A stretch of DNA of 64,000 nucleotides from Sulfitobacter aestuariivivens. GTDB taxonomy: Bacteria; Pseudomonadota; Alphaproteobacteria; Rhodobacterales; Rhodobacteraceae. The DNA is taken from assembly GCF_014763045.1 (NCBI RefSeq), contig NZ_JACTAG010000001.1, positions 930,001 to 994,000 on the forward strand. The letters run 5' to 3'. Shown here one piece after another: positions 16,071 to 30,957 of the stretch (position 1 is the first letter of the stretch; every line of letters begins with the position of its first letter). The position numbers and the translations under genes are program-made. Under the pieces are notes generated by a model. The model searched no databases, was not told the origin of the DNA, and saw nothing but the letters and a program-made list of their open reading frames with translations.

Positions 16071-16637
16071 TCAGAGGGCCGAATGCATCGCCGTTAGCAG
16101 CGCGTGATGCAACGATCCTGCGCTGGCGCGCGGTCCCAGAATCCGGACAAACGCATCCGGCTCTCCGCACACGACAAAGCATCCAAGATGATGGATTGAG
16201 GTGCGCGTTGCATCCCCTGGCTCCATCCGCCGGTGGTCAATATTGCACAGAAGCTCCATCACCATCTGAATGCCCGCTCCAGACAGATCAAAGCACACCC
16301 AGGCATCAGATTGCTCGGTGACTGATGCGCTGGACTTCAGCACGTCCTTGCAGGTCTGCGCCAGAGTTTCATGCGCTTGGTAGTCCGCACCGATCATCCA
16401 TTGATCCGGGCCCATCCAAACTGCGGATAACGGATCAGACAACAGTGCCTTGCCGGGGGCAGGCGGGGCAGCGCCCAGTAACCTTGTCAGGTTTTCGGCG
16501 CAGGTTTCTTCTTGGCCGAGGCGCGCAGCGACGCTGGACAGCGCAAGGTCGCTGTTTTCCGCAAGCGTCACGCCGCCGTGCCTGTCAACTCGCGCCTCTG
16601 CGCCGCCAAGCGCTGTTATTGCTGTCAGATCATGCAC
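16071..16637 (-). CDS. soxG: Sarcosine oxidase subunit gamma
   Basis: A 188-residue GcvT/YgfZ-like subunit of heterotetrameric sarcosine oxidase. It opens with HDLTAITALGG, the usual start of this subunit, and contains WMGPDQWMI and FDLSGAG, both typical of SoxG. The start is taken as GTG 16637, which overlaps the soxA stop by eight bases; a longer frame reaches 16664 but lies inside soxA and lacks homologous sequence. The subunit does not hold the flavin; it helps assemble the complex. Confidence 0.88.
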   Translation of the reverse strand: MHDLTAITALGGAEARVDRHGGVTLAENSDLALSSVAARLGQEETCAENLTRLLGAAPPAPGKALLSDPLSAVWMGPDQWMIGADYQAHETLAQTCKDVLKSSASVTEQSDAWVCFDLSGAGIQMVMELLCNIDHRRMEPGDATRTSIHHLGCFVVCGEPDAFVRILGPRASAGSLHHALLTAMHSAL

Positions 16638-19575
16638 GCAACCGCTCCCCCTTTGGATCGACAAAGTGGGCTGAGACCACTTCTACCGAAATGGTCAGAT
16701 CGGTAAGGGGCGACACCAGCCGCAGCGTTTCGCCCAACCGCTCATCCCCTTGTTTCAACAGGGCCAGACCGATCATGCTGTTCATTGCAGGCGAGAACGC
16801 AGCCGACGTCACGTAGCCTTGATCATGCGCGGCATCCACGGGGCCATCCGCCCGCATCAAATGCCCTCCCGCCGTTATCTTGGTTTCCGGGTCGAGGGGT
16901 TTGAGACCGACCAGCTTGAGCGCGTCCGCCTCATTTAGGCCAGGGCGTCGTGACAAGGCCGCACCGATAGTGTCCTTGGCCGTGCTGACCATACGCCCCA
17001 GACCAAGGTTGAGTGCCGTTGTGGTGCCGTTCAGTTCGTTACCTGCGGCGTGGCCTTTTTCGATACGCATCACCCCCAAAGCCTCGGTTCCGTAGGGCGT
17101 TACACCGAATTCTTCACCTTGTTGCATCAGCTTGCGCATCAGCGAGTCGCCATAGCGTGAGGGCACCGCGATCTCAAAGGCCAGTTCACCCGAAAAGGAG
17201 ATGCGGAAAAGCCGCGCGCGCAGGCCGCCGCAGACCGTGATGTTCGCGCAGGCCATGAAAGGAAACGCGTCGTTTGAGATGTCGTGGTCGGCATCGACAA
17301 TCTTTTCCAGCAATTTCCGTGAGTTCGGCCCGGCAACGGCGTATTGTGCCCAAGCCTCGGTTGTGGAAATCAGCTGCACATCGGCATCCGGCATCAGACA
17401 CTGGCGGACAAACTCCATGTGCTGATATACCTTGCCGGCGTTGGCTGTCGTGGTGGTGACCACAAAATGATCTTCCTCTAGGCGGGCGGCGGTACCGTCG
17501 TCCATGACAATTCCGTCTTCGCGCAGCATCAGACCATACCGGGTCTTGCCAACAGGCAGCTTCGCCATGCCGTTGGCATAGACAAAGTTGAGAAACCGTG
17601 CAGCATCAGTGCCTTGCACGTCAATCTTGCCAAGGGTCGTACAATCGCACACCCCCACCGACGCGCGGGTCTGTCGCACCTCACGGTCCACGCTTTGCCG
17701 CCAGTGCGTCTCGCCGGGGCGTGGAAACCATTGCGCACGGAGCCAGTTGCCAACCTCGACAAAGACTGCGCCCTGTTCCTTTGCCCAGTTGTGCGACGGC
17801 GTCAGTCGGGTGGGGTGAAACTCGGTCCCCCGCATCCGCCCGCCAAAGGTGCCAATAGGTACGGGCGTGTAGGGCGGACGAAAGATCGTGGTCCCTGTTT
17901 CGGGGATCGATTTTCCCGCAAGCTCGGCCATGATGGCAAGACCGCCCATGTTCGACGTCTTGCCCTGATCGGTCGCCATGCCCAGCGTGGTATAGCGTTT
18001 GAGATGCTCGACGCTGCGAAAGCCTTCCTGATGGCTGAGTTTCACGTCCTTGACGGTGACGTCGTTCTGCTGATCGAGCCAGCCGCGTGTGGTGCCTTTG
18101 ACATACCAGAATGGGGTCATGTTTACGGGCATGTCTTCGGCGTCTGCCACCTTTGGCGCGCGGCCCTTGAGACCAAGCGCCTTGCGTGCGGCCTCTTTTC
18201 CCGTAACCAACGCCTGATGGGTCGACAACGCCCCCGTTGCAGCCCCCGCAACGCGCATTCCCATCGGCAGGATACCGCCCGGCACAAAGGCAGCAATGTC
18301 GTCTTGCCATGCCGGCCGTCCGCGTTGGTGACAGGTCAGATGAACGTTCGGATTCCATCCGCCAGACACCCCCAAAGCACCGCATTCCAATGTGCGTTCT
18401 GATCCATCCGCCAGCTTGACCTCGGCAAAGGTCAGGCCAAGACGGCCTTTGGTATCAATCACTTGAGCGCCGCGCAGCACTTGATAATCGGTGCTGAGGG
18501 CGGCGTCGGGGCGGGTGTCGACAACGGCGGCAATCTGGACGCCGCAGGCTTGCAGATCCCGCGCGGTGCGGTGCCCGTCGTCATTGTTGGTAAAGATCGC
18601 AATCCGCTTGGCGGGTGTGGCCGCAAAACGGTTGGCGTAGGTGCGCAGAGCGCTGGCCAGCATCACACCGGGACGGTCATTGTTGTCAAAGGCGATGGGT
18701 CGCTCGGTGGCACCGGCACACAGGATTGTTTGCCGGGTGGTGATCCGCCACAGGATCTGGCGCGGTTTGTCTGCATCGGGCATGTGCAGATGGTCGCTGA
18801 TACGTTCCACAGCACCATAGATGCCGTGATCAAAGGCGCCGATGATCGTGGTGCGGGGCATCAGCCGCACGTTGGGCAGGGATGAGAGTTCGGCCACCGC
18901 AGACGCGGCCCAGTCCGCGCCGCTTTGCCCAGAAATTTCAAAGGTTTCCGCATTCAGGCGGCCGCCCATTCTGAAGTCTTCATCAGCCAAAATGACATCC
19001 GCGCCCGCGCGACCGGCGGTGAGCGCGGCCATCAGTCCCGCGGGGCCCGCACCGATGATCAGCAGGTCGCAATGGCGGAAACCCTTGTCATAGACATCAG
19101 GGTCTTCGCGGCCTGACAGTGCGCCCAGACCTGCCGCTCTGCGGATAATGGGCTCGTACAGCTTTTCCCAGAACGCTTTGGGCCACATGAATGTTTTGTA
19201 GTAGAACCCGGCGGTCAGGAAGTTTGAGAACCGGTCGTTGATCGCCATGGCATCAAAGGCAAGGCTGGGCCAACGGTTCTGGGAATGGGCGACAAGACCG
19301 TCATAGAGCTCTGCCGTGGTGGCGCGGGTGTTGGGCTCGCGCCTGGCGCCGCCGCGTAGCTCTACAATCGCGTTTGGTTCTTCTGAACCTGCGGTCAGCG
19401 GCCCACGCGGGCGGTGGTACTTGAACGACCGGCCCATAAGCCGCACATTGTTGGCCAAAAGGGCAGAGGCCAGGGTATCCCCTTCAAATCCCTGATAGAA
19501 TTTTCCGTCGAACATGAACTTGAGCGGCCGATCTCGGTTGATCTGGCCGCCTTGCAAACGGTTGATCTGGGTCAT
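16630..19575 (-). CDS. soxA: Sarcosine oxidase subunit alpha
   Basis: A 981-residue subunit, the normal size. The N-terminal part has FEGDTLASALLANNVRLMGRSFKYHRP-like sequence (a ferredoxin-like plug domain), then the dinucleotide fold LLIIGAGPAGLMAALTAGRAG from about residue 171, then a C-terminal aminomethyltransferase (GcvT) domain from about residue 590 with NFVYANGMAKLPVGKTRYG and the THF-binding region. It transfers the methyl group of sarcosine to THF as 5,10-methylene-THF, with H2O2 produced from the beta-subunit flavin. The start overlaps the soxD stop (ATGA). Confidence 0.95.
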   Translation of the reverse strand: MTQINRLQGGQINRDRPLKFMFDGKFYQGFEGDTLASALLANNVRLMGRSFKYHRPRGPLTAGSEEPNAIVELRGGARREPNTRATTAELYDGLVAHSQNRWPSLAFDAMAINDRFSNFLTAGFYYKTFMWPKAFWEKLYEPIIRRAAGLGALSGREDPDVYDKGFRHCDLLIIGAGPAGLMAALTAGRAGADVILADEDFRMGGRLNAETFEISGQSGADWAASAVAELSSLPNVRLMPRTTIIGAFDHGIYGAVERISDHLHMPDADKPRQILWRITTRQTILCAGATERPIAFDNNDRPGVMLASALRTYANRFAATPAKRIAIFTNNDDGHRTARDLQACGVQIAAVVDTRPDAALSTDYQVLRGAQVIDTKGRLGLTFAEVKLADGSERTLECGALGVSGGWNPNVHLTCHQRGRPAWQDDIAAFVPGGILPMGMRVAGAATGALSTHQALVTGKEAARKALGLKGRAPKVADAEDMPVNMTPFWYVKGTTRGWLDQQNDVTVKDVKLSHQEGFRSVEHLKRYTTLGMATDQGKTSNMGGLAIMAELAGKSIPETGTTIFRPPYTPVPIGTFGGRMRGTEFHPTRLTPSHNWAKEQGAVFVEVGNWLRAQWFPRPGETHWRQSVDREVRQTRASVGVCDCTTLGKIDVQGTDAARFLNFVYANGMAKLPVGKTRYGLMLREDGIVMDDGTAARLEEDHFVVTTTTANAGKVYQHMEFVRQCLMPDADVQLISTTEAWAQYAVAGPNSRKLLEKIVDADHDISNDAFPFMACANITVCGGLRARLFRISFSGELAFEIAVPSRYGDSLMRKLMQQGEEFGVTPYGTEALGVMRIEKGHAAGNELNGTTTALNLGLGRMVSTAKDTIGAALSRRPGLNEADALKLVGLKPLDPETKITAGGHLMRADGPVDAAHDQGYVTSAAFSPAMNSMIGLALLKQGDERLGETLRLVSPLTDLTISVEVVSAHFVDPKGERLRA

Positions 19576-19850
19576 TTTCGCCGCTCCAGTGCAACGTCGC
19601 GGGCAAGCGCGACATCGGTGATTTCATGCGTCGTTGTATCGCGGGTGACGACCAGCCAGGAGCGGTCGCCGCCCTCGTGGAACCACAATTCGCGATGCGG
19701 CCCCGCGGGGTTGTCACGCAGGTAGGCGTAGGCGTGCCAGTCGTCCGGTGTGGCCGTCTGTGGGTCAGGCCGATCAAGGAGCGTGGCAGCGCCCAGATAG
19801 ACAAATTCAGAGGCGTCGCGGGGACCCAGAAGGGGGTGGTGGATGATCAC
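19572..19850 (-). CDS. soxD: Sarcosine oxidase subunit delta, variant lacking the usual zinc cysteines
   Basis: A 92-residue protein in the soxD position. The core matches SoxD: YLRDNPAGPHRELWFHEGGDRSWLVVTRDT. Classical SoxD begins with a CPYCG zinc pair and has a further His-x3-Cys; here the start reads IIHHPLLGPRDASEF and the later Cys is replaced, so the canonical Cys ligands are absent. Two N-terminal histidines might substitute. The start is GTG 19850, supported by GAGGG about nine bases upstream; an open frame to 19952 passes through an 11-bp tandem repeat and into soxB and is probably not translated. Confidence 0.83.
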   Translation of the reverse strand: MIIHHPLLGPRDASEFVYLGAATLLDRPDPQTATPDDWHAYAYLRDNPAGPHRELWFHEGGDRSWLVVTRDTTTHEITDVALARDVALERRK

Positions 19851-19868
19851 GGAAAGACCCTCAAAATC

Positions 19869-19912
19869 AACGTCGGTATAACGTCGGTATCGTGTCGGTA
19901 TTGCGTCGGTTT
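19869..19912. repeat. Four 11-bp tandem repeats between soxB and soxD
   Basis: On the + strand the units are AACGTCGGTAT (19869-19879), AACGTCGGTAT (19880-19890), CGTGTCGGTAT (19891-19901) and TGCGTCGGTTT (19902-19912). The core GTCGGTAT is nearly invariant. The last unit touches the soxB stop, and the repeats end 18 bases before the soxD GTG, so they sit in the leader of soxD in the sox mRNA. Confidence 0.9.
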
Positions 19913-21162
19913 CAATGCAGATTGGGCTGATTGCCCACTCCCTTTTCGTCAATCATGTGTCCGGTGCGAAAACGGTCGAACCGATAAGCGGTGGCAACGT
20001 GATGCGGGGTGTCGGTGGCCAGCAGATGGGCGAAGGTATAGCCCGAGGCCGGCGTGGCCTTGAAGCCGCCGTAGCACCAGCCGCCGTTGAAGTAGAGCCC
20101 GTCGATATGAGTGCGGTCGATGATCGGCGAGCCGTCCATCGACATGTCCATGATCCCGCCCCACATGCGCAAAAGCCGGGCCCGCCCGATCATGGGCATG
20201 ATCGCCATGCCCCCTTCGCAGACGTCTTCGACGACTGGCAGGTTCCCCCGTTGGGCGTAGGAGTTGTACCCGTCGATATCGCCGCCAAAGACCAGGCCAC
20301 CCTTGTCCGACTGGCTGACGTAGAAGTGTCCCGCCCCGAAAGTGATGACGCCTGGTAGGATCGGTTTGAGCCCTTCGGAGACAAAGGCCTGCAGAACGTG
20401 AGATTCGATCGGCAAGCGCATATCGGCATGGGCCATCAGTCGACCGGAGGAACCGGCAACCGCGCAGCCTACCTTGGTGGCCCCGATAAATCCGCGCGAG
20501 GTTTCGACGCCGGTGCAGGTGCCGTCCTGAATGCGAAAACCCGTCACCTCGCAGTTCTGGATGATATCGACGCCGCGACTGTCGGCTGCACGTGCAAATC
20601 CCCAGGCGACCGCATCATGGCGCACGGTGCCGCCGCGTCGCTGGGCAAGGCCGCCCTTGATAGGAAAACGCGCGTCACGGAAGTTGAGATAGGGGTATTC
20701 ACGGCGCACGGCGGCCTCATCCAGCAATTCGGCGTCCGCACCGTTGAGGATCATTGCGTTGCCGCGCCGGGTAAAGGCGTCGCGTTGCGCGTCTGAGTGG
20801 ATCAGGTTGATGATCCCGCGCTGACTGACCATGGCGTTGTAGTTCAGATCCTGCTCCAGCCCCTCCCATAGCTTGAGGGAAAACTCGTAGAAGGGTTCAT
20901 TACCGTCCAGCAGATAGTTGGAGCGGATGATGGTCGTGTTGCGGCCCACGTTGCCACCACCGATCCAGCCTTTTTCGAGCACAGCCACGGATTTTTGCTG
21001 ATAGACCGACGCCAGATAATGCGCCGTTGCCAGACCGTGTCCGCCGCCACCAATCACGATGATGTCGTAGTGCGCCTTGGGCTCGGGCTCGCGCCAGGCC
21101 GGACCCCACCCGCGATGGCCTGTCAGTGCTTCCTTGATGATCCTGAATCCGGAGTACCGCAT
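19912..21162 (-). CDS. soxB: Sarcosine oxidase subunit beta
   Basis: A 416-residue flavoprotein, the family's usual length, which oxidises sarcosine. The FAD fold is at about residue 36 (DIIVIGGGGHGLATAHYLA), and the region QRRGGTVRHDAVAWGFARA contains the His that binds FMN covalently in characterised homologues. The C-terminus holds FNGGWCYGGFKATPASG. ATG 21162 is chosen over the open frame to 21198 because family members start with MRYSGF and because AAGGCGG precedes it. First gene of soxBDAG. The promoter must lie in the region shared with nagA. Confidence 0.95.
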   Translation of the reverse strand: MRYSGFRIIKEALTGHRGWGPAWREPEPKAHYDIIVIGGGGHGLATAHYLASVYQQKSVAVLEKGWIGGGNVGRNTTIIRSNYLLDGNEPFYEFSLKLWEGLEQDLNYNAMVSQRGIINLIHSDAQRDAFTRRGNAMILNGADAELLDEAAVRREYPYLNFRDARFPIKGGLAQRRGGTVRHDAVAWGFARAADSRGVDIIQNCEVTGFRIQDGTCTGVETSRGFIGATKVGCAVAGSSGRLMAHADMRLPIESHVLQAFVSEGLKPILPGVITFGAGHFYVSQSDKGGLVFGGDIDGYNSYAQRGNLPVVEDVCEGGMAIMPMIGRARLLRMWGGIMDMSMDGSPIIDRTHIDGLYFNGGWCYGGFKATPASGYTFAHLLATDTPHHVATAYRFDRFRTGHMIDEKGVGNQPNLH

Positions 21163-21335
21163 GATGATCCGCCTTTTGTCACCCGCATCCTGTCGCATCC
21201 CGGTGGGCTGGTCCCACCCGAATCCGACATCGGATCAGCAGCTTCGGACCTTTTTTGGCGTCGACCTGAGCGGATATGTGTTGGATAGTAGATTGCCGGA
21301 GGTTTCTGGTGCTGCAACGTGAAGGAATTGGCGAA
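21163..21335. promoter_or_regulatory. Divergent soxB-nagA promoter region with two inverted repeats
   Basis: Two short perfect inverted repeats lie 3 bases apart: GGTGGG-5-CCCACC at 21202-21218 and ATCCGA-2-TCGGAT at 21222-21235. They are centred about 50-65 bases before soxB and about 110-125 before nagA, a normal place for operators. No regulator gene is adjacent. Confidence 0.5.
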
Positions 21336-22617: not shown

Positions 22618-23691
22618 ATGGTTGGCACTGCGGCACCACCGGCAAAGCGGGTCGTGATTGTAGACGATTCACAAACCATGCGCCTGTGGCTGGCGCATGT
22701 TCTCAATCAGGATCCACGGCTTGAGGTTGTCGGGCAGGCCGCCAACGCGGCAGAGGCCAGACGGACCATCAGGGACCTTAGGCCGGACGTGATCACACTT
22801 GATATCGAAATGCCGGGCATGGATGGTCTGACCTTTCTGGAGCGGCTCATGGTGCGCGATCCTTTGCCGGTGGTCATGGTCGCGGGGCAGACCCGCCAAG
22901 GGTCGGCGACGGCCATTCGCGCGCTTTCACTCGGCGCGGTCGATTGCGTGATGAAGCCGGGCAATGCGCTTGATCTCAAGGCGCAACGCAGTTTGGTACG
23001 ACAGGTCTATGCTGCTGCTTGCAGCCAGGTGCGCCCCCTGCAAGGAACCCATCAGACCGTTACTGCGCAATTCCCGGCGGCGCAGGTTGGCCCGCAACCG
23101 CTCGTGCTGATCGGGGCGTCGACAGGCGGCGTGACGGCGCTTGAGCGTATTCTGCGTGATCTCCATCCTGCCGGGCCACCCGTCGCAATTGTGCAGCACA
23201 TGCCGGGCCCGTTTCTGAGCAGTTTTGCACACATGCTCAATCGCAATCTGCCGCAGATGGTCGGCCTGATGCGCGATGACGCGCCGATGGAGGCGGGGCA
23301 GATCTTGCTCGCACCCGAGCTGGGTCGTGATGCGACGGTTTCACGCCTGTCCGGACGGTGGGTGGGGCATTTGACGACATCCGCGCAGACGGCGGCCCAT
23401 TGCCCGTCGATTGACGCCTTGTTCACATCCGCTATGCCGTATGCCGCAGATGTGATCGGGGTGATCCTGACGGGGCTTGGTCGGGACGGGGCGCGGGCCT
23501 TGCAACATTTGCGGGCGGGTGGGGCGCATACGATTGGACAGGATGCGGGAACCTCGGTGGTCTACGGCATGCCACGCGCGGCCTTTGAACTGGATGCGGT
23601 CACCGAACAACTTCCGCTGGACCGGATCGGACCAGCGATCAACGCGGCCGTGGCTGATTATCTGGGCGGTCGCGGGAAGATGAGGGGGTGA
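22618..23691 (+). CDS. cheB: Chemotaxis protein-glutamate methylesterase/deamidase CheB
   Basis: A 357-residue response-regulator esterase. The N-terminal receiver (residues about 11-120) has VVIVDDSQTMR and the phospho-acceptor in LDIEMPGMDG; the C-terminal esterase domain has the catalytic Ser (GASTGG), His (QHMPGPF) and Asp (LTGLGRDGA). CheB removes methyl groups from chemoreceptors. Unlike the other che genes here it is on the + strand and converges on them, so it has its own promoter, with a 19-bp palindrome in front. No receptor gene is near. ATG 22618 lacks a strong ribosome site. Confidence 0.93.
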   Translation: MVGTAAPPAKRVVIVDDSQTMRLWLAHVLNQDPRLEVVGQAANAAEARRTIRDLRPDVITLDIEMPGMDGLTFLERLMVRDPLPVVMVAGQTRQGSATAIRALSLGAVDCVMKPGNALDLKAQRSLVRQVYAAACSQVRPLQGTHQTVTAQFPAAQVGPQPLVLIGASTGGVTALERILRDLHPAGPPVAIVQHMPGPFLSSFAHMLNRNLPQMVGLMRDDAPMEAGQILLAPELGRDATVSRLSGRWVGHLTTSAQTAAHCPSIDALFTSAMPYAADVIGVILTGLGRDGARALQHLRAGGAHTIGQDAGTSVVYGMPRAAFELDAVTEQLPLDRIGPAINAAVADYLGGRGKMRG

Positions 23692-23815
23692 ACACGGAGC
23701 GTGCGGCGCGATGAACGGTTGATTTAGGAGGTTTCTATTCTGCGAAAAAAACGACAATAGCATTAGTATCAATGGAGTATGCCGTTAACCTAATGTCGAT
23801 CAAGCCTGTGAGAGG

Positions 23816-24214
23816 TCAGCTTGGATCTGCGCTTGTGGTATCGAAAAGATACGCGATGCCGGTTTGTGCCGGTAGATGCGGGGCTGGGGTGTCTGAACTC
23901 AGCAACAATCTGCGGGTCGATTCTAACTTGAGCTCTGCACTCCAAGCCTTTGACAGGTCAGTGGGAATTGGATCGGTGTTCGACAGGGCGCCGATCTGTC
24001 GCGAAAGCCGGGCGAGGTCTTGCAGTGACTGGTGAAGGTGATCCAATGCCTGCAATTCCGCGACCAAATCAGAGTGCAGGTGGCTCATTTCGGTCAATCG
24101 TCTTCCCGCGACCAGGTCCAGGCGACGCACATCAGCACCCATCGCATCAAGTCGTGCCGCGAGGTCAGTCATCAAACCGGGAACCGTTTGTGCGGGTTGT
24201 CCCGGGTCGGTCAC
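23816..24214 (-). CDS. Helical protein ending the che operon, possible CheZ-like phosphatase
   Basis: A 132-residue protein I do not recognise by family. It is mostly predicted helix, with heptad-like leucines at residues 18-80 (LAARLDAM, VAELQALDHLHQSLQDLARL). Within that helix, D58-HLH-Q62 has the D-x-x-x-Q spacing of the CheZ active site, which places Gln and Asp next to phospho-CheY. The start is a GTG that overlaps the stop of the CheY gene before it, so the two should be made together. The C-terminus ends in a hydrophobic patch (GIAYLFD) after a Pro-rich link, loosely like the CheY-binding tail of CheZ. Function is inferred. Confidence 0.7.
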   Translation of the reverse strand: MTDPGQPAQTVPGLMTDLAARLDAMGADVRRLDLVAGRRLTEMSHLHSDLVAELQALDHLHQSLQDLARLSRQIGALSNTDPIPTDLSKAWSAELKLESTRRLLLSSDTPAPHLPAQTGIAYLFDTTSADPS

Positions 24215-24597
24215 AGCCGACCCACGACCGCTTCAATGCAAATCTTGAGTTGTGTGACCTCAAAGGGTTTCTTGATGAAGTTGTTCATCCCCAGTTTCTT
24301 GCCATGATCGATGATTTTCTGCTCGGCTTGGCTTGTGATCAGGATAAAACCAACGCCCTTTGTTTTTTCGCCAGAGCGCAGGTGCTGCAACAGGTGCAAT
24401 CCGTCCATCTCCGGCATGTTGTAATCCGAGATCACCAGATGCACCGGCTTTTTTGCCAGTAGCGCCAGCGCGGCCTTTCCGTTTTCGGCGCTTGAGACAT
24501 TCCGGATACCAAAACTGTCCAGCGCCTGCGTCAGCAGGCCCCGGCTGGTGGACATATCATCGACCACCATGATCTGAAGTTGGTCACGCAGGGACAA
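24211..24597 (-). CDS. cheY: CheY-like response regulator (second of the cluster)
   Basis: A 128-residue single-domain receiver. Conserved sites are the acidic pair VVDD (residues 12-13), phospho-acceptor Asp in ISDYNMPEMDG, Thr in LITSQ and Lys in IKKPF. It has no output domain, so it should act on the flagellar motor or as a phosphate sink. The frame starts at TTG 24597, well supported by AAGGAG nine bases upstream. Its stop overlaps the next gene, the possible phosphatase. Confidence 0.92.
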   Translation of the reverse strand: MSLRDQLQIMVVDDMSTSRGLLTQALDSFGIRNVSSAENGKAALALLAKKPVHLVISDYNMPEMDGLHLLQHLRSGEKTKGVGFILITSQAEQKIIDHGKKLGMNNFIKKPFEVTQLKICIEAVVGRL

Positions 24598-24632: not shown

Positions 24633-25484
24633 TCACGACATGAGGGGCCGATACGCCGTTGCCCCGGCGATATCAAAGCCAACGCGGGCAGGGTCGGTGA
24701 TCCGCTCCGAATGGCCAAGAAACAACAACCCACCGGGACGCAATGCATCGCGAAATCGCGGCCAAAGCCGGGCTTGGGTCATCAGATCGAAATAGATCAC
24801 AACATTTCGACAGAATATGATGTCGAACGCGTTGCGCATGGGCCAATCGCCTAGAATATTAAGTTCATTGTAGCGGATCAGTCGCATGACATCGGGGCGG
24901 GCCTGAAACGCGAGGTCGCCTTTGGCCGACCTGCGCGGGGTAAAATGCCGCTGCCTCACATCCTGGGGCAGCCCTTCGATCATTTTTTCGCTGTAGGTTC
25001 CCGCCCGGGCAAAGCGGATCACCTGGCGGTCGATATCTGTGCCAAGTATCCGCAGATCGAATTCACCGATGCACGGAAAACGCTCCAGCAGAAAGAGGGC
25101 TGCGGACAGGCTTTCCTGTCCATTTGAGCAACCGGCTGACCAGATCCGCACCCGATCGCCTGCCTGCAGCGCAGAAAGGCGTGATTGCACTACCTCGCAC
25201 ATCATCTCGAAGTGGTGCTTTTCACGGTAAAAATGGGACACGTTCGTTGTGAGGGCACAGATCAATTCGCGCCGCTCTGGCTGGCCCTCCTCAGAGGTTA
25301 AGAATGCGGTGTACTGCGCGAAATCACCGATCCCAAGCGCGCGCAGGCGATGCCGCAACCGCGACTGGATCATGATCGCCTTTTCCTCAACCAGTGTCAG
25401 ACCGCTTTCGCGATAGGCAAGTGCCGCAATGGTCCGGAAACTTTCGCCGTCGAGCGTTTGGGTCGGATCAGTCTGGCGCATCAT
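24633..25484 (-). CDS. cheR: Chemotaxis protein methyltransferase CheR
   Basis: A 283-residue SAM-dependent enzyme that methylates receptor glutamates. The N-terminal helical domain is followed by LTTNVSHFYREKHHFE, the SAM region IWSAGCSNGQESLSAA, LGTDIDRQVIRFARAGTY, and DIIFCRNVVIYFD, all CheR hallmarks. The start overlaps the cheW stop (ATGA). Its presence with CheB shows the pathway uses methylation-based adaptation, although no receptor gene is in the window. Confidence 0.95.
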   Translation of the reverse strand: MMRQTDPTQTLDGESFRTIAALAYRESGLTLVEEKAIMIQSRLRHRLRALGIGDFAQYTAFLTSEEGQPERRELICALTTNVSHFYREKHHFEMMCEVVQSRLSALQAGDRVRIWSAGCSNGQESLSAALFLLERFPCIGEFDLRILGTDIDRQVIRFARAGTYSEKMIEGLPQDVRQRHFTPRRSAKGDLAFQARPDVMRLIRYNELNILGDWPMRNAFDIIFCRNVVIYFDLMTQARLWPRFRDALRPGGLLFLGHSERITDPARVGFDIAGATAYRPLMS

Positions 25485-25936
25485 GCGGCGGGTCTTTCCA
25501 TATCGTCGAGCGTCGCCGTCAGATCCAGAACGCGGACCATCTTGTCCTCGATGACCGCCAACGCGGTCACCATTGATTTGCTGCTTTTTGACATTGTGGG
25601 CGGGGGGCGCAGATCGTCCGTTGCAAGTGTCACGATGTCAGAGACGGCATCGACAAGAAGGCCTGTAAGGCGATCTTCAAGCGCGACCACAATAATCACG
25701 CTGCGGTCATTGTGCGCACTTGGGGGCAGGCCAAGTCTTTCACCCAAATCAATCACCGGCAGCACGGTGCCGCGCAGGTTGATCACACCTTTCATGCAGG
25801 CCGGTGATTGCGGCAATGGCGTTGCGTGGGTTGATCCGCGTATTTCGCGGACCGATGTGATTTCGAGGGCGTATTTCTGGTCTGCGAGCTTGAACGTGAG
25901 CAGTTCAATTGGTTCGGCTTCGGTGTCACGGGTCAT
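25481..25936 (-). CDS. cheW: Chemotaxis coupling protein CheW
   Basis: A 151-residue CheW-domain protein that links receptors to CheA. The fold is marked by LLTFKLADQKYALEITSVREI at the start, the NLRGTVLPVIDLGERLGL segment and IIVVALEDRLTGLLVDAVSDIV. The size is normal. It overlaps cheA upstream and cheR downstream by four bases each, so the unit is tightly coupled. Confidence 0.94.
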   Translation of the reverse strand: MTRDTEAEPIELLTFKLADQKYALEITSVREIRGSTHATPLPQSPACMKGVINLRGTVLPVIDLGERLGLPPSAHNDRSVIIVVALEDRLTGLLVDAVSDIVTLATDDLRPPPTMSKSSKSMVTALAVIEDKMVRVLDLTATLDDMERPAA

Positions 25937-28062
25937 GCGGGCTCTCCTTGTGGGGCAGGGGCCGTGTGCGGCACCCGTGGCGTGTCAAATGCCCCGCTGA
26001 CAAAATCGGACGGATCGAGGATAAGGGCGATGTGGCCATCCCCAAGGATGGTTGCCGCAGCGATCCCCGGCGCGCGGAAAAAACGGTCGTCGAGGCCCTT
26101 GATGACCACCTGACGCTGATCAACGATGTCGTCTATGAGCAGCGCCGCGCTGGTGCCGTCCGCAAGGGCAACAAGCAGCACGATGCCACCCTCGAAGGTT
26201 TCGATCAGAGGGCGATAACCAAGGTGATGGCCCAGATCAATAAGTGGGAAAAACCCATCCCGTGCACGAACGACATGACACCCCGGGCGCAACAATGACA
26301 CGTCTGGCGCGGTCAGTGTCAGGGTTTCAATCACCAGACTGATCGGTAAGACCAGGGTTTCATCGGCGACACTAATGACCATTCCGTCCAGCACGGCGAG
26401 GGTGAGAGGGAGCGAGATCGAGAACGTTGTGCCGCGCCCAGGTGCCGATTGGATTGAGACGCGCCCGCCGAGGGCCTGAATTTCCGTGCGCACCACATCC
26501 ATCCCGACCCCCCGACCCGACAGGTCGGAGACGGCGGGCGCGGTGGAGAAGCCCGGCAAGAACAACAGAGCGTCGATGTCGCTGTCTGACAGGACCGCAT
26601 CGGCAGCGATCACTTGTTTTTCGATGGCTCTTTGCCTGACGCGGGGGCGATCGATGCCCGCGCCGTCGTCGCCGACCTCAATATGCACCCGCCCGGACCG
26701 ATGTGCCGCACTGAGCGTGATTGTGCCCTGCGCCGGCTTTCCGGCCGCGCACCGTGTCGCCGGGTCTTCCAGACCATGATCGATGGCATTACGAATTAGA
26801 TGGGTCAGGGGGTCGGCAAGCCGTTCAATGACGGTCTTGTCCACCTCGCAGCACTCGCCCAACATGCGCAAGCGCACGTCCTTGCCGAGCGCGCCCGAGG
26901 CCTCTCGGACGATGCGGGACATGCGTTGGAACAAGGCCTTAACCGGTTGAGCACGGATCATCATGACACTGTCCTGAATGTCGCGGGTCAGCCTTTGAAA
27001 CTCCTCAACTCCGTGCATTGCGTCGGAATGTGGTGACAATCCGGACTGATCCAGACTTTGGCTGAGCATGGCCTGATTGATCACCAGTTCACCGACCAGA
27101 TTGACCAAACGTTCCACTCGGTCCAGCTCGACACGCACAACGGGTTTTTGGACGGGTGGAGTGGGCCTGCCCGGTTTGACCTGACGGCCGGTTGTCGGCC
27201 GCGATGGGGCCGCGGTGTCATTTCGGTATTGCGGCGGCTCTGATTGATGGGCTGGGGTGGGATCGGCACTGGAGACGCTCTCCAGCTCGATGTTCAGGTG
27301 GCACAACCCTTCGACGAATTCGAAAACTGATTGCACTTCTGCCAGATCGGCCTGGGTCTCAAGTGTGATGTCCCAGCGCAGATGGGGTATGTCAGGCACC
27401 AGTTTCTCGAAGGGCGGGAGGTCGGATAAATCGCATGAGGTCGAAGCATGGCCCAATGCGTGCAAATGGCGCAACAGCACGGCAGGTTCGTTGCCGGTCT
27501 CGAACAGCTCTGCGAAGGGTTGGAAGGTTATTCGGAAATGTCGGATTTTGGATGTGGTGTCCGGCACATGTGCCTGGTCTTTCGGCGGGTCAGAAGGATC
27601 AAGGTTTAGCGTGATCTTTTCGGGCTCAAAGTCGATGTCACTTTGGTGGGTTGTCTTGGGGGCGGGATCGCCGATCAGCTGATCGATTGCGTCACAGATG
27701 GCCAGGGTATCGGTTTCGGGCAATGGTGCGTCATCGCGTGAAAGTTCCACGATATCAGCCAGATGGTCTGTGGCGCTGAGCAATGTTCTGAGCACATCTG
27801 CGCTTGGGGCAAGGGTACCTGCGCGCAGTGCGTCCAGTACTGTTTCAAACCGATGGGAGAACCGTACCAAACCGTCAAGGCCAAACGCACCCGCGCCGCC
27901 CTTGATGGAATGGACCGCACGGAAGATCACATTGATCGTCTCAGAATCTTCCTCACCGTTTTGCATCGCCATCAGACCGTCCTGCAGAACATCCAAAAGC
28001 TCCTCGCACTCATGGAAAAAGGAGGCTTTGATCTCTGCCATGGGGTCGTGGGGCGCGGGCAT
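25933..28062 (-). CDS. cheA: Chemotaxis histidine kinase CheA
   Basis: A 709-residue kinase. The N-terminal Hpt domain has the phosphorylation site H51 in HSIKGGAGAFG. A middle region at about residues 170-270 resembles a receiver-binding segment (FRITFQPFAELFETGNEP). The dimerisation domain begins near residue 310 (VRVELDRVERLVNLVGELVI). The ATPase domain shows the N box HLIRNAIDHGLEDP, G1 box GDDGAGID and G2 box GRGVGMDVV. The C-terminal CheW-like regulatory domain follows (FSISLPLTLAVLDGMV on). It phosphorylates CheY and CheB. Its stop overlaps the cheW start. Confidence 0.96.
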   Translation of the reverse strand: MPAPHDPMAEIKASFFHECEELLDVLQDGLMAMQNGEEDSETINVIFRAVHSIKGGAGAFGLDGLVRFSHRFETVLDALRAGTLAPSADVLRTLLSATDHLADIVELSRDDAPLPETDTLAICDAIDQLIGDPAPKTTHQSDIDFEPEKITLNLDPSDPPKDQAHVPDTTSKIRHFRITFQPFAELFETGNEPAVLLRHLHALGHASTSCDLSDLPPFEKLVPDIPHLRWDITLETQADLAEVQSVFEFVEGLCHLNIELESVSSADPTPAHQSEPPQYRNDTAAPSRPTTGRQVKPGRPTPPVQKPVVRVELDRVERLVNLVGELVINQAMLSQSLDQSGLSPHSDAMHGVEEFQRLTRDIQDSVMMIRAQPVKALFQRMSRIVREASGALGKDVRLRMLGECCEVDKTVIERLADPLTHLIRNAIDHGLEDPATRCAAGKPAQGTITLSAAHRSGRVHIEVGDDGAGIDRPRVRQRAIEKQVIAADAVLSDSDIDALLFLPGFSTAPAVSDLSGRGVGMDVVRTEIQALGGRVSIQSAPGRGTTFSISLPLTLAVLDGMVISVADETLVLPISLVIETLTLTAPDVSLLRPGCHVVRARDGFFPLIDLGHHLGYRPLIETFEGGIVLLVALADGTSAALLIDDIVDQRQVVIKGLDDRFFRAPGIAAATILGDGHIALILDPSDFVSGAFDTPRVPHTAPAPQGEPA

Positions 28063-28071
28063 GGAAGGGAC

Positions 28072-28437
28072 CTATCCCGCGACCATGTGGAGTGCTTTGA
28101 CCAGTTTCGCAGGGTCGAAGGGTTTGACGATCCATCCGGTTGCGCCTGCCATGCGGGCGCGCTCTTTCAACTGTGGGGCGGCCTCGGTGGTCAGCACGAG
28201 GATCGGCGTGGTGCGGTGCTGGTCGGTTCCGCGCACGGCGTCGATGAACCCAAAACCATCCAACCGTGGCATGTTGATATCGGTGATGATCGCATCGGGT
28301 TGCAGCCCTTCGAGCACTTCGATCCCATGCACGCCGTCCTCTGCGGTGTGGACATCGAATCCTTCGGGAAGCAAGGCCAGGCGGATGACATCGCGCATTG
28401 TTGGGCTGTCATCTACGGCGAGTATTTCAAGTGTCAT
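28072..28437 (-). CDS. cheY: CheY-like response regulator (first of the cluster)
   Basis: A 121-residue receiver with AVDDSPTMR (acidic pair), phospho-acceptor Asp in TDINMPRLDG, the Thr of LTTEA and the Lys of IVKPF, all intact. It lacks an output domain. It starts eleven bases inside the STAS gene and ends nine bases before cheA. It is closer in sequence to classical CheY than the second regulator of the operon, so it may be the motor-binding one; that is a guess. Confidence 0.93.
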   Translation of the reverse strand: MTLEILAVDDSPTMRDVIRLALLPEGFDVHTAEDGVHGIEVLEGLQPDAIITDINMPRLDGFGFIDAVRGTDQHRTTPILVLTTEAAPQLKERARMAGATGWIVKPFDPAKLVKALHMVAG

Positions 28438-28708
28438 TGCACCCCTCCGTGATCCGTTCCGGGGTCAGGCCCATCACGCTGAATTGCCTGAGCAGAGTGT
28501 CGCTGACGTTGCTGAGCGACAGGCGCCGGTTGGTCGCGCGCAAGTGAACACCGGCGGCAATCAAGACCTGTGCGCACAGGGCACCAACCTGCGATACGTG
28601 CGTCAGGTCCACCTCAACGTCGACATCATTTGCCGCCGATATCTGCGCGTAAAGTGCGGGAACGGCTGTGAGGTCCAGCTTTCCCTGAGGGGCGATGACG
28701 CTATGCAT
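28427..28708 (-). CDS. STAS-domain protein, first gene of the che operon
   Basis: A 93-residue protein with a STAS fold (LDLTAVPALYAQI, VEVDLTHVSQVGALCAQVLIAAG, LSLSNVSDTLLRQF). STAS proteins bind partners and are often controlled by phosphorylation of a Ser in a DSS motif. That motif is replaced by VGALC here, so phospho-control is doubtful. Small STAS proteins at the head of alphaproteobacterial che operons are known but have no clear role. The ATG has only a weak ribosome site. Confidence 0.82.
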   Translation of the reverse strand: MHSVIAPQGKLDLTAVPALYAQISAANDVDVEVDLTHVSQVGALCAQVLIAAGVHLRATNRRLSLSNVSDTLLRQFSVMGLTPERITEGCNDT

Positions 28709-28906: not shown

Positions 28907-29989
28907 TTAACCGCGGCGACGACGTCCGCCAGTGCGGCCCGCACGACCGCGGCCCTCGTGACCTGCTTTGGGCGCGACCTTGTTGAATTCGATCCATGCC
29001 GATCCGTGTGGATCGCGGTCAAAGAGGAAGTTGGCGGCGCGGATGGCTTCCATTTCCTTGCCCGCACGCGCCTTGGTGGAACCCATGCCGAACATCTGCA
29101 CAAAGGTCTCGTCGTCCATACCGTCGGGGATCATGATACCGGCTGCAATCACTTCGGCCTTCTTTTCCTCGATCCGCTTGGCGTTCACAGGCAGGGCAAC
29201 CGGATTCATGATCGCAGATGTCATCCCGGCGCCCATCGCCATAGGCAAAAAGGCGTTATTGATGCCGTGGCGGTTGGGCAAGCCGAAAGAGATGTTCGAT
29301 GCGCCACAGGTCGTGTTCACGCCCAGTTCCTCGCGCAGGCGGCGTACGAGGGTAAAGACCTGATGACCGGCGGTCGCCATGGCACCGATGGGCATGACCA
29401 GCGGGTCCACGACGATGTCATGGGCCGGAATACCGAAATCAGCGGCGCGTTCCACAATCTTTTTGGCGACAGCAAAGCGCACGTCGGGGTCTTCGGAAAT
29501 ACCGGTGTCATCATTGGAGATGGCCACCACCGGCACATTGTATTTTTTGACCAGCGGCAGCACCATTTCCAGCCGTTCTTCTTCGCCGGTAACAGAGTTC
29601 AGCAGGGGGCGCCCTTCGGCGGCGGCCAGACCGTTTTCCAGTGCGCCGGGAACAGAGCTGTCGATGCATAGGGGCACATCGGTTATTGCCTGTACCTTTT
29701 CAACCAGTTCCCGCATCAGGGGCGGTTCAACAAAGTTGTTGTCGGCATAACGCGGGTCTTCGGCCATCTTGTTGGAAAAGACCGCACCTGAGTTGATGTC
29801 AAGGATGTTCGCCCCGGCAGCGACCTGCGCAAGCGCATCCGCCTCAACACGGCTGAAATCGCCGCGCTCAAGCTCTTCTGACAGGATCTTGCGGCCTGTG
29901 GGGTTGATCCGTTCGCCGATGACACAGAAAGGCTGGTCAAAGCCGATGATCGCGGTCTTGGTTTTGGATTCGACAACAGTTCTGGTCAT
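28907..29989 (-). CDS. Methyltetrahydrofolate:corrinoid methyltransferase (pterin-binding family)
   Basis: A 360-residue TIM-barrel enzyme of the pterin-binding family. Typical stretches are GERINPTGR, ILDINSGAV, CIDSSVPGALENGL and NSVTGEEER. It should move the methyl group of methyl-THF to a corrinoid protein. There is no cobalamin-binding domain on it and none encoded nearby, so the partner is elsewhere. Roseobacters can split methionine synthase into separate parts, and this may be its folate part; glycine-betaine or DMSP methyl transfer is the alternative. The last 18 residues are rich in Arg and Gly, unusual for this family. ATG 29989 has AGGA upstream. Confidence 0.88.
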   Translation of the reverse strand: MTRTVVESKTKTAIIGFDQPFCVIGERINPTGRKILSEELERGDFSRVEADALAQVAAGANILDINSGAVFSNKMAEDPRYADNNFVEPPLMRELVEKVQAITDVPLCIDSSVPGALENGLAAAEGRPLLNSVTGEEERLEMVLPLVKKYNVPVVAISNDDTGISEDPDVRFAVAKKIVERAADFGIPAHDIVVDPLVMPIGAMATAGHQVFTLVRRLREELGVNTTCGASNISFGLPNRHGINNAFLPMAMGAGMTSAIMNPVALPVNAKRIEEKKAEVIAAGIMIPDGMDDETFVQMFGMGSTKARAGKEMEAIRAANFLFDRDPHGSAWIEFNKVAPKAGHEGRGRAGRTGGRRRRG

Positions 29990-29997
29990 GATGGGTC

Positions 29998-30927
29998 CTA
30001 AAGGCTTGCGTTTGCAGGGACGGTAGAGGCGCCGCCGTTTTCGATTGCCCAATTGGCATTGGTTTTGATGCCGCCCAGCGGGAAGAAGTGAACGTGGCTG
30101 ATATTGAAATCGGGGTTTGCGGCCTTGTGGGCGGCTAGTTCTGCGACAACCTCGGTCGGCTCGTATGGCAAGAGCAGCTTGGTCACATCCATCGCGCGCT
30201 TTTGCAGAACTTTCAACGACGGGCCAACACCGCAGGCGATGGCGAATTTGATCAGGGTCTGCAGCTTGGCCGGGCCTGCAATCCCGATGTGTACGGGCAG
30301 AGTGATACCTGCATCCCTCAGGCCATCAGCCCAGGCGATGATCGGCTTGGCCTCAAAGGCGAACTGCGTGGCGATGGCCATTTCTGCGTCTGTCCGGGTC
30401 TGGAAATCGTTCTTCCATTTCAGCGCTGCATCCACGTTGGCAGTCCCTGTGGCGTCGATGTCGCGGTTGCCTTCGGGGTGACCTGCAACGTGCAGACGCT
30501 TGAAGCCCGCGTCGTCAAAGAGACCCGTTTCCATCAACTGCATGGAGTCGCTGAATTCGCCGTGCGGTTCAGCCACGCCACCGGCGAGCAGCAATGCCTG
30601 GTTTACGTCCGCTTCGCCTTGGTACATGGCGATCCAATTGGCGAGCGTCGCGCGGTCCTTGATAATACGCGCGGGAAAGTGCGGCATGACCTTGTAGCCA
30701 TCTGTATTGAGGCGCTTTGCCGTTGCGACCATGTCTTCGATGGGCGTGCCTTCGATGTGGGCGATATAGACGCGGGTGGCCTCGGGCAGCAGATCGCGAA
30801 AGTTCTCCACCTTTTCGGCGGTCCGGGGCATCACTTCGATCGAGTAATCCTTGAGGAATGCTTCGACCTGGGGGCTGTTTGCCGGCGCGGCGGGCGCGTC
30901 TTTGCGGCGGAAATTCAGCAGGGACAT
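29998..30927 (-). CDS. metF: Methylenetetrahydrofolate reductase-like protein
   Basis: A 309-residue member of the MTHFR family, a flavin TIM barrel that reduces 5,10-methylene-THF to methyl-THF. Recognisable parts are EVMPRTAEKVENFRDLL near the start, the VMPHFPARII region, LLLAGGVAEPHG and the C-terminal HFFPLGGIKTNANW. It diverges from E. coli MetF and may be a special form. ATG 30927 is supported by AAGGA nine bases upstream. It lies eight bases before the pterin-binding methyltransferase, so the pair likely channels methyl groups from methylene-THF to a corrinoid. Confidence 0.85.
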   Translation of the reverse strand: MSLLNFRRKDAPAAPANSPQVEAFLKDYSIEVMPRTAEKVENFRDLLPEATRVYIAHIEGTPIEDMVATAKRLNTDGYKVMPHFPARIIKDRATLANWIAMYQGEADVNQALLLAGGVAEPHGEFSDSMQLMETGLFDDAGFKRLHVAGHPEGNRDIDATGTANVDAALKWKNDFQTRTDAEMAIATQFAFEAKPIIAWADGLRDAGITLPVHIGIAGPAKLQTLIKFAIACGVGPSLKVLQKRAMDVTKLLLPYEPTEVVAELAAHKAANPDFNISHVHFFPLGGIKTNANWAIENGGASTVPANASL

Positions 30928-30957
30928 GATGTTATCCTTGAGAGAGGGCACGGGCGT

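Follow-up and report, generated by a model that had tools for sequence, protein, structure and literature searches.

CheT has been described in S. meliloti by Agbekudzi et al. 2024 (doi 10.1111/mmi.15303), as reported in PMC12654446. According to that review, the protein carries a DXXXQ motif, has a predicted CheZ-like structure, speeds the dephosphorylation of only one of the two CheYs and forms a complex with CheR; in the Agrobacterium cluster, CheS and CheT are given as atu0515 and atu0522, respectively. The corresponding S. meliloti operon (CP090106.1) encodes a globin-coupled sensor, a STAS protein, CheY1, CheA, CheW, CheR, CheB, CheY2, CheD and a 124-aa hypothetical protein, which we identified as CheT by its position in the operon and which carries the sequence LQGIDLAVQ.

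A 64,000-nt stretch of the Sulfitobacter aestuariivivens genome, here called the window, contains a che operon of the order STAS-cheY-cheA-cheW-cheR-cheY, as assigned by Pfam and NCBIfam searches on the cluster proteins, with an ORF of 132 aa as its final gene (Table 1). The position of this ORF at the end of the operon and the overlap of its GTG start with the stop of a cheY gene had been pointed out in a sequence-only reading of the window, and both were confirmed. The overlap comprises 4 nt, read as GTGA at 24214-24211, and suggests translational coupling to cheY2. The same reading had described the protein as unrecognised. This holds for its annotation and for Pfam and NCBIfam, in neither of which a credible family was found for the ORF, but not for the literature, where the protein already appears as CheT. 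A Pfam match to MerR_2 was rejected as a chance match (13.8 bits versus a cut-off of 29). Judged from translations only, the che cluster is flanked by sarcosine oxidase subunit-like and methyltetrahydrofolate/folate reductase-like genes (window 16071-21198 and 28907-30951), and its neighbourhood looks like one-carbon metabolism.

Table 1. Positions of the che genes and of cheT sequence features in the window.
Feature	Position	Strand	Remarks
cheT orthologue, 132 aa	23816..24214	-	GTG start overlapping cheY2 stop (GTGA)
Codons of invariant motif Q55-A-L-D58-H-L-H-Q62	24029..24052	-	Invariance in 84 orthologues; synonymous codons mixed
Degenerate copy of conserved C-terminal tail, GIAYLF (residues 119-124), then 8 extra residues	23843..23860	-	Alignment
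cheY2-type response regulator	24211..24597	-	43% identical to S. meliloti CheY2
cheR methyltransferase	24633..25484	-	
cheW	25481..25936	-	
cheA	25933..28062	-	
cheY1-type response regulator	28072..28437	-	57% identical to S. meliloti CheY1
STAS protein, CheS-like	28427..28708	-	31% identical over 70 aa to S. meliloti STAS protein
cheB, convergent with cheT	22618..23691	+	

As judged from profile comparisons and gene order, the 132-aa ORF is a CheT orthologue, the marine-roseobacter version of the protein, and as such a new, unannotated member of a known and published kind. When the whole host genome was searched with a profile of rhizobial CheT, the ORF was the single match (E 2e-6), and a profile-profile alignment with rhizobial CheT by hhalign resulted in a probability of 99.6% (E 1.8e-24). 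Using an HMM built from Rhodobacterales sequences only, S. meliloti CheT scored 45.9 bits. A similar family profile was run against the PDB as a control, and the best chance coiled coil scored 23.3 bits; the keratin and designed coiled coils obtained in this search (up to 23 bits) were set aside as coiled-coil background and kept as the control. Direct pairwise BLAST of the ORF against S. meliloti CheT gave no match, so that the link between the two rests on profiles, synteny and motif; for the same reason, the gene is missed by annotation. Both proteins are encoded by the last gene of a che operon, share LQxxDxxxQ and profile homology, are of similar length (124 aa in S. meliloti, 132 aa here) and are accompanied by a STAS protein, two CheYs, CheA, CheW and CheR. 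The two CheYs of the window pair one to one with those of S. meliloti. Apart from the lack of detectable pairwise similarity, the locus differs from that of S. meliloti in that cheB is separate and encoded on the opposite strand, no cheD was found in the genome, and the C-terminal tail of CheT is degenerate and extended (TGIAYLFDTTSADPS versus AAGDFEAF). The range of CheT is thereby widened from the rhizobia to a large marine group in which the protein is annotated only as hypothetical, and the family signature, LQxxDxxxQ together with a tail of the form G-[DE]-hydrophobic-[DE]-[LF]-F, could seed a Pfam/NCBIfam model.

Modelling with AlphaFold2 on 62 aligned sequences predicted a hairpin of two helices (model residues 10-40 and 47-75) together with two short helices, at a mean pLDDT of 84 and low confidence in the tail. 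D58-HLH-Q62, previously noted to lie in a long helix, has the residues as claimed and falls within predicted helix 2. Across 84 aligned sequences, whose pairwise identity averages 22%, Q55, D58 and Q62 are the only invariant positions; a search of the homologues for loss of D58 or Q62 found both residues kept in 84/84 orthologues. All three invariant residues point to the same side of helix 2, at 145-175 degrees from the hydrophobic face as calculated from alignment-averaged hydrophobicity, and are therefore probably exposed. Fold searches of the PDB by Foldseek and VIA-align returned only generic helical hairpins among the matches listed (best Foldseek E 1.4, Z 8). These were WXG100 proteins, designed bundles and kinase DHp domains; CheZ was absent from them, which excludes nothing.

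Our main reading, to which we assign a probability of roughly 0.8, is that the gene encodes a CheT that would dephosphorylate one partner CheY by a CheZ-like D/Q mechanism and probably would bind CheR as well. Phosphatase activity, substrate and CheR binding of the window protein are all proposed by analogy with characterised proteins. In the predicted hairpin, Q55, D58 and Q62 are carried by the outward-facing side of the second helix. By analogy with CheZ and S. meliloti CheT, D58 and Q62 would be inserted beside the phospho-aspartate of the partner CheY, the glutamine would place the attacking water, and dephosphorylation would thus be accelerated. The likelier substrate would be the CheY1-type regulator, in view of the selectivity of S. 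meliloti CheT for a single CheY. In the 2024 study, this substrate was reportedly CheY1, and the rate enhancement is said to have been only about two-fold. CheY1 of S. meliloti acts as a phosphate sink. Through its probable binding to CheR, CheT would also link signal termination to adaptation. The cluster had been proposed to be devoid of CheC and of a recognisable CheZ, and Pfam and NCBIfam searches bore this out: neither CheZ (PF04344) nor CheC (PF04509) was matched by any of the cluster proteins, the cheT product included, or elsewhere in the genome. Since the genome has neither, CheT, a phosphate-sink CheY1 and the STAS protein would be the likely route of termination, and CheT may explain how che systems of roseobacters without CheZ or CheC turn off CheY signals.

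The protein may instead be CheT by descent but chiefly bind CheR or another adaptation protein to tune methylation, with dephosphorylation of CheY being minor or absent. We consider this unlikely, since the sole invariant residues are the exposed QxxDxxxQ set, for which a pure adaptor would have no use, and since the tail of the window copy is degenerate. The reportedly small rate enhancement by S. meliloti CheT is nevertheless in line with such a role, as is the resemblance of conserved CheT tails to the CheR-binding pentapeptide of receptors described below. Complex formation of S. meliloti CheT with CheR, as given in PMC12654446, points in the same direction.

Most CheT orthologues end in G-[DE]-[VLI]-[DE]-[LF]-F or near it, and 64 of the 112 CheT sequences have the pattern hydrophobic-[DE]-x-F within their final 14 residues, compared to 1.5 expected from shuffles. 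Nearly all CheD proteins in the fetched loci share this form of tail (e.g. GDLELF and GELELF); the tail common to CheT and CheD is a new side observation. CheD also has the tail in those Sphingomonadales loci at which no CheT was seen behind cheY. In these genomes, the C-termini of the receptors have the form of a CheR tether. In published receptor pentapeptides, the second residue is Trp, the fifth is Phe and the others are acidic (PMC7390727). Similar to this CheR-binding pentapeptide (NWETF, xWxxF), the tails of CheT and CheD are acidic and have a hydrophobic residue three positions before the final Phe; in contrast to it, Trp is never present at this position in those CheT tails that match the pattern, its place being taken by one of V, L, I, F and C. 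The likeness suggests that the CheT tail may dock to CheR, but docking to CheY, as is known for the C-terminus of CheZ, would fit about as well. More speculatively, and with a rather low probability, the common tail G-[DE]-hydrophobic-[DE]-[LF]-F of alphaproteobacterial CheT and CheD might mimic the receptor pentapeptide and dock both proteins on CheR. If so, a single tether site would be contested by signal termination, deamidation and methylation. The tail also provides a testable idea of how CheT and CheR come together. For the window protein, a C-terminal hydrophobic patch had been proposed. The patch exists as GIAYLF at residues 119-124 and represents the degenerate form of the tail, but it is not terminal, as eight residues (DTTSADPS) come after it.

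A CheD profile had no match anywhere in the host genome (G000) or in that of a relative (G013), while CheD was found in 23 of the 30 genomes searched. In relatives, cheD is usually located between cheT and cheB, and it is missing from this interval here (window 23692-23815). The host genome contains a single clear full chemoreceptor signalling domain (G000:C1:221282-221752, L220), and the protein ends in DGWEEF, a tether of the CheR type; two further short receptor matches look partial.

By sequence, the cheT product is not CheZ, although it may act in a CheZ-like way. The two have in common a D-x-x-x-Q in a long helix, a gene that adjoins cheY and the proposed mechanism. They differ in that no profile similarity was detected, the hhalign probability against 34 alphaproteobacterial CheZ sequences being 3%, that the CheZ consensus FQD[IL]TGQ has its Gln at D-1 while LQxxDxxxQ of the CheT family has it at D-3, and that the CheT chain is about half as long. 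The ORF is therefore very unlikely to encode a divergent true member of the CheZ family, even though its DxxxQ sits in a long helix and CheZ genes follow related cheY genes in other Alphaproteobacteria, too (loci L038-L040). Of the CheZ-type phosphatase proposed by the sequence-only reading, the D-x-x-x-Q motif was upheld, with both residues invariant among the orthologues, but membership in the CheZ family by profile was not. Phosphatases of the CheC/CheX/FliY type take phosphate off CheY, as CheT would, but have another fold and another motif, and CheC has no match in this genome. When the whole class was searched with the family profile, matches were obtained in 12 of 241 genomes, 7 of which were convincing by motif (L206-L210, L212, L213). 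None of the seven is listed with a CheZ match, but this sample is too limited in size, and its members are too closely related, for us to claim that CheT and CheZ exclude each other.

Loci were fetched around relatives of the neighbouring CheY, and the ORF behind each cheY was then read. An ORF with QxxDxxxQ lies behind cheY at 68 of the 69 Rhodobacterales-type loci that resemble the window most closely (L041-L109); at the remaining one, the contig stops just after cheY. The choice of ORF made use of the presence of DxxxQ, while Q55 was not a criterion, and such an ORF was present at almost all intact Rhodobacterales loci. In shuffles of the protein sequence of the window ORF, DxxxQ was present in 52% and QxxDxxxQ in 3%. 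Hence, the spacing alone is not significant, and it is the invariance among orthologues that makes the motif so. At each of the sites of Q55, D58 and Q62, both synonymous codons are in use, so that the constraint acts on the protein. The small gene is real and conserved. A spurious ORF, or a chance motif in a helical protein with a different role, might be suspected from the frequency of DxxxQ in shuffles and from the low pairwise identity, but is refuted by the set of orthologues, with its near-complete retention of the ORF, its three invariant residues with mixed codons and its orthology to a characterised gene, and has a negligible probability. At four loci from genomes of the same genus (L033-L036), the main pair is replaced by a more distant cheY-cheT pair with a CheY identity of 45-52%.
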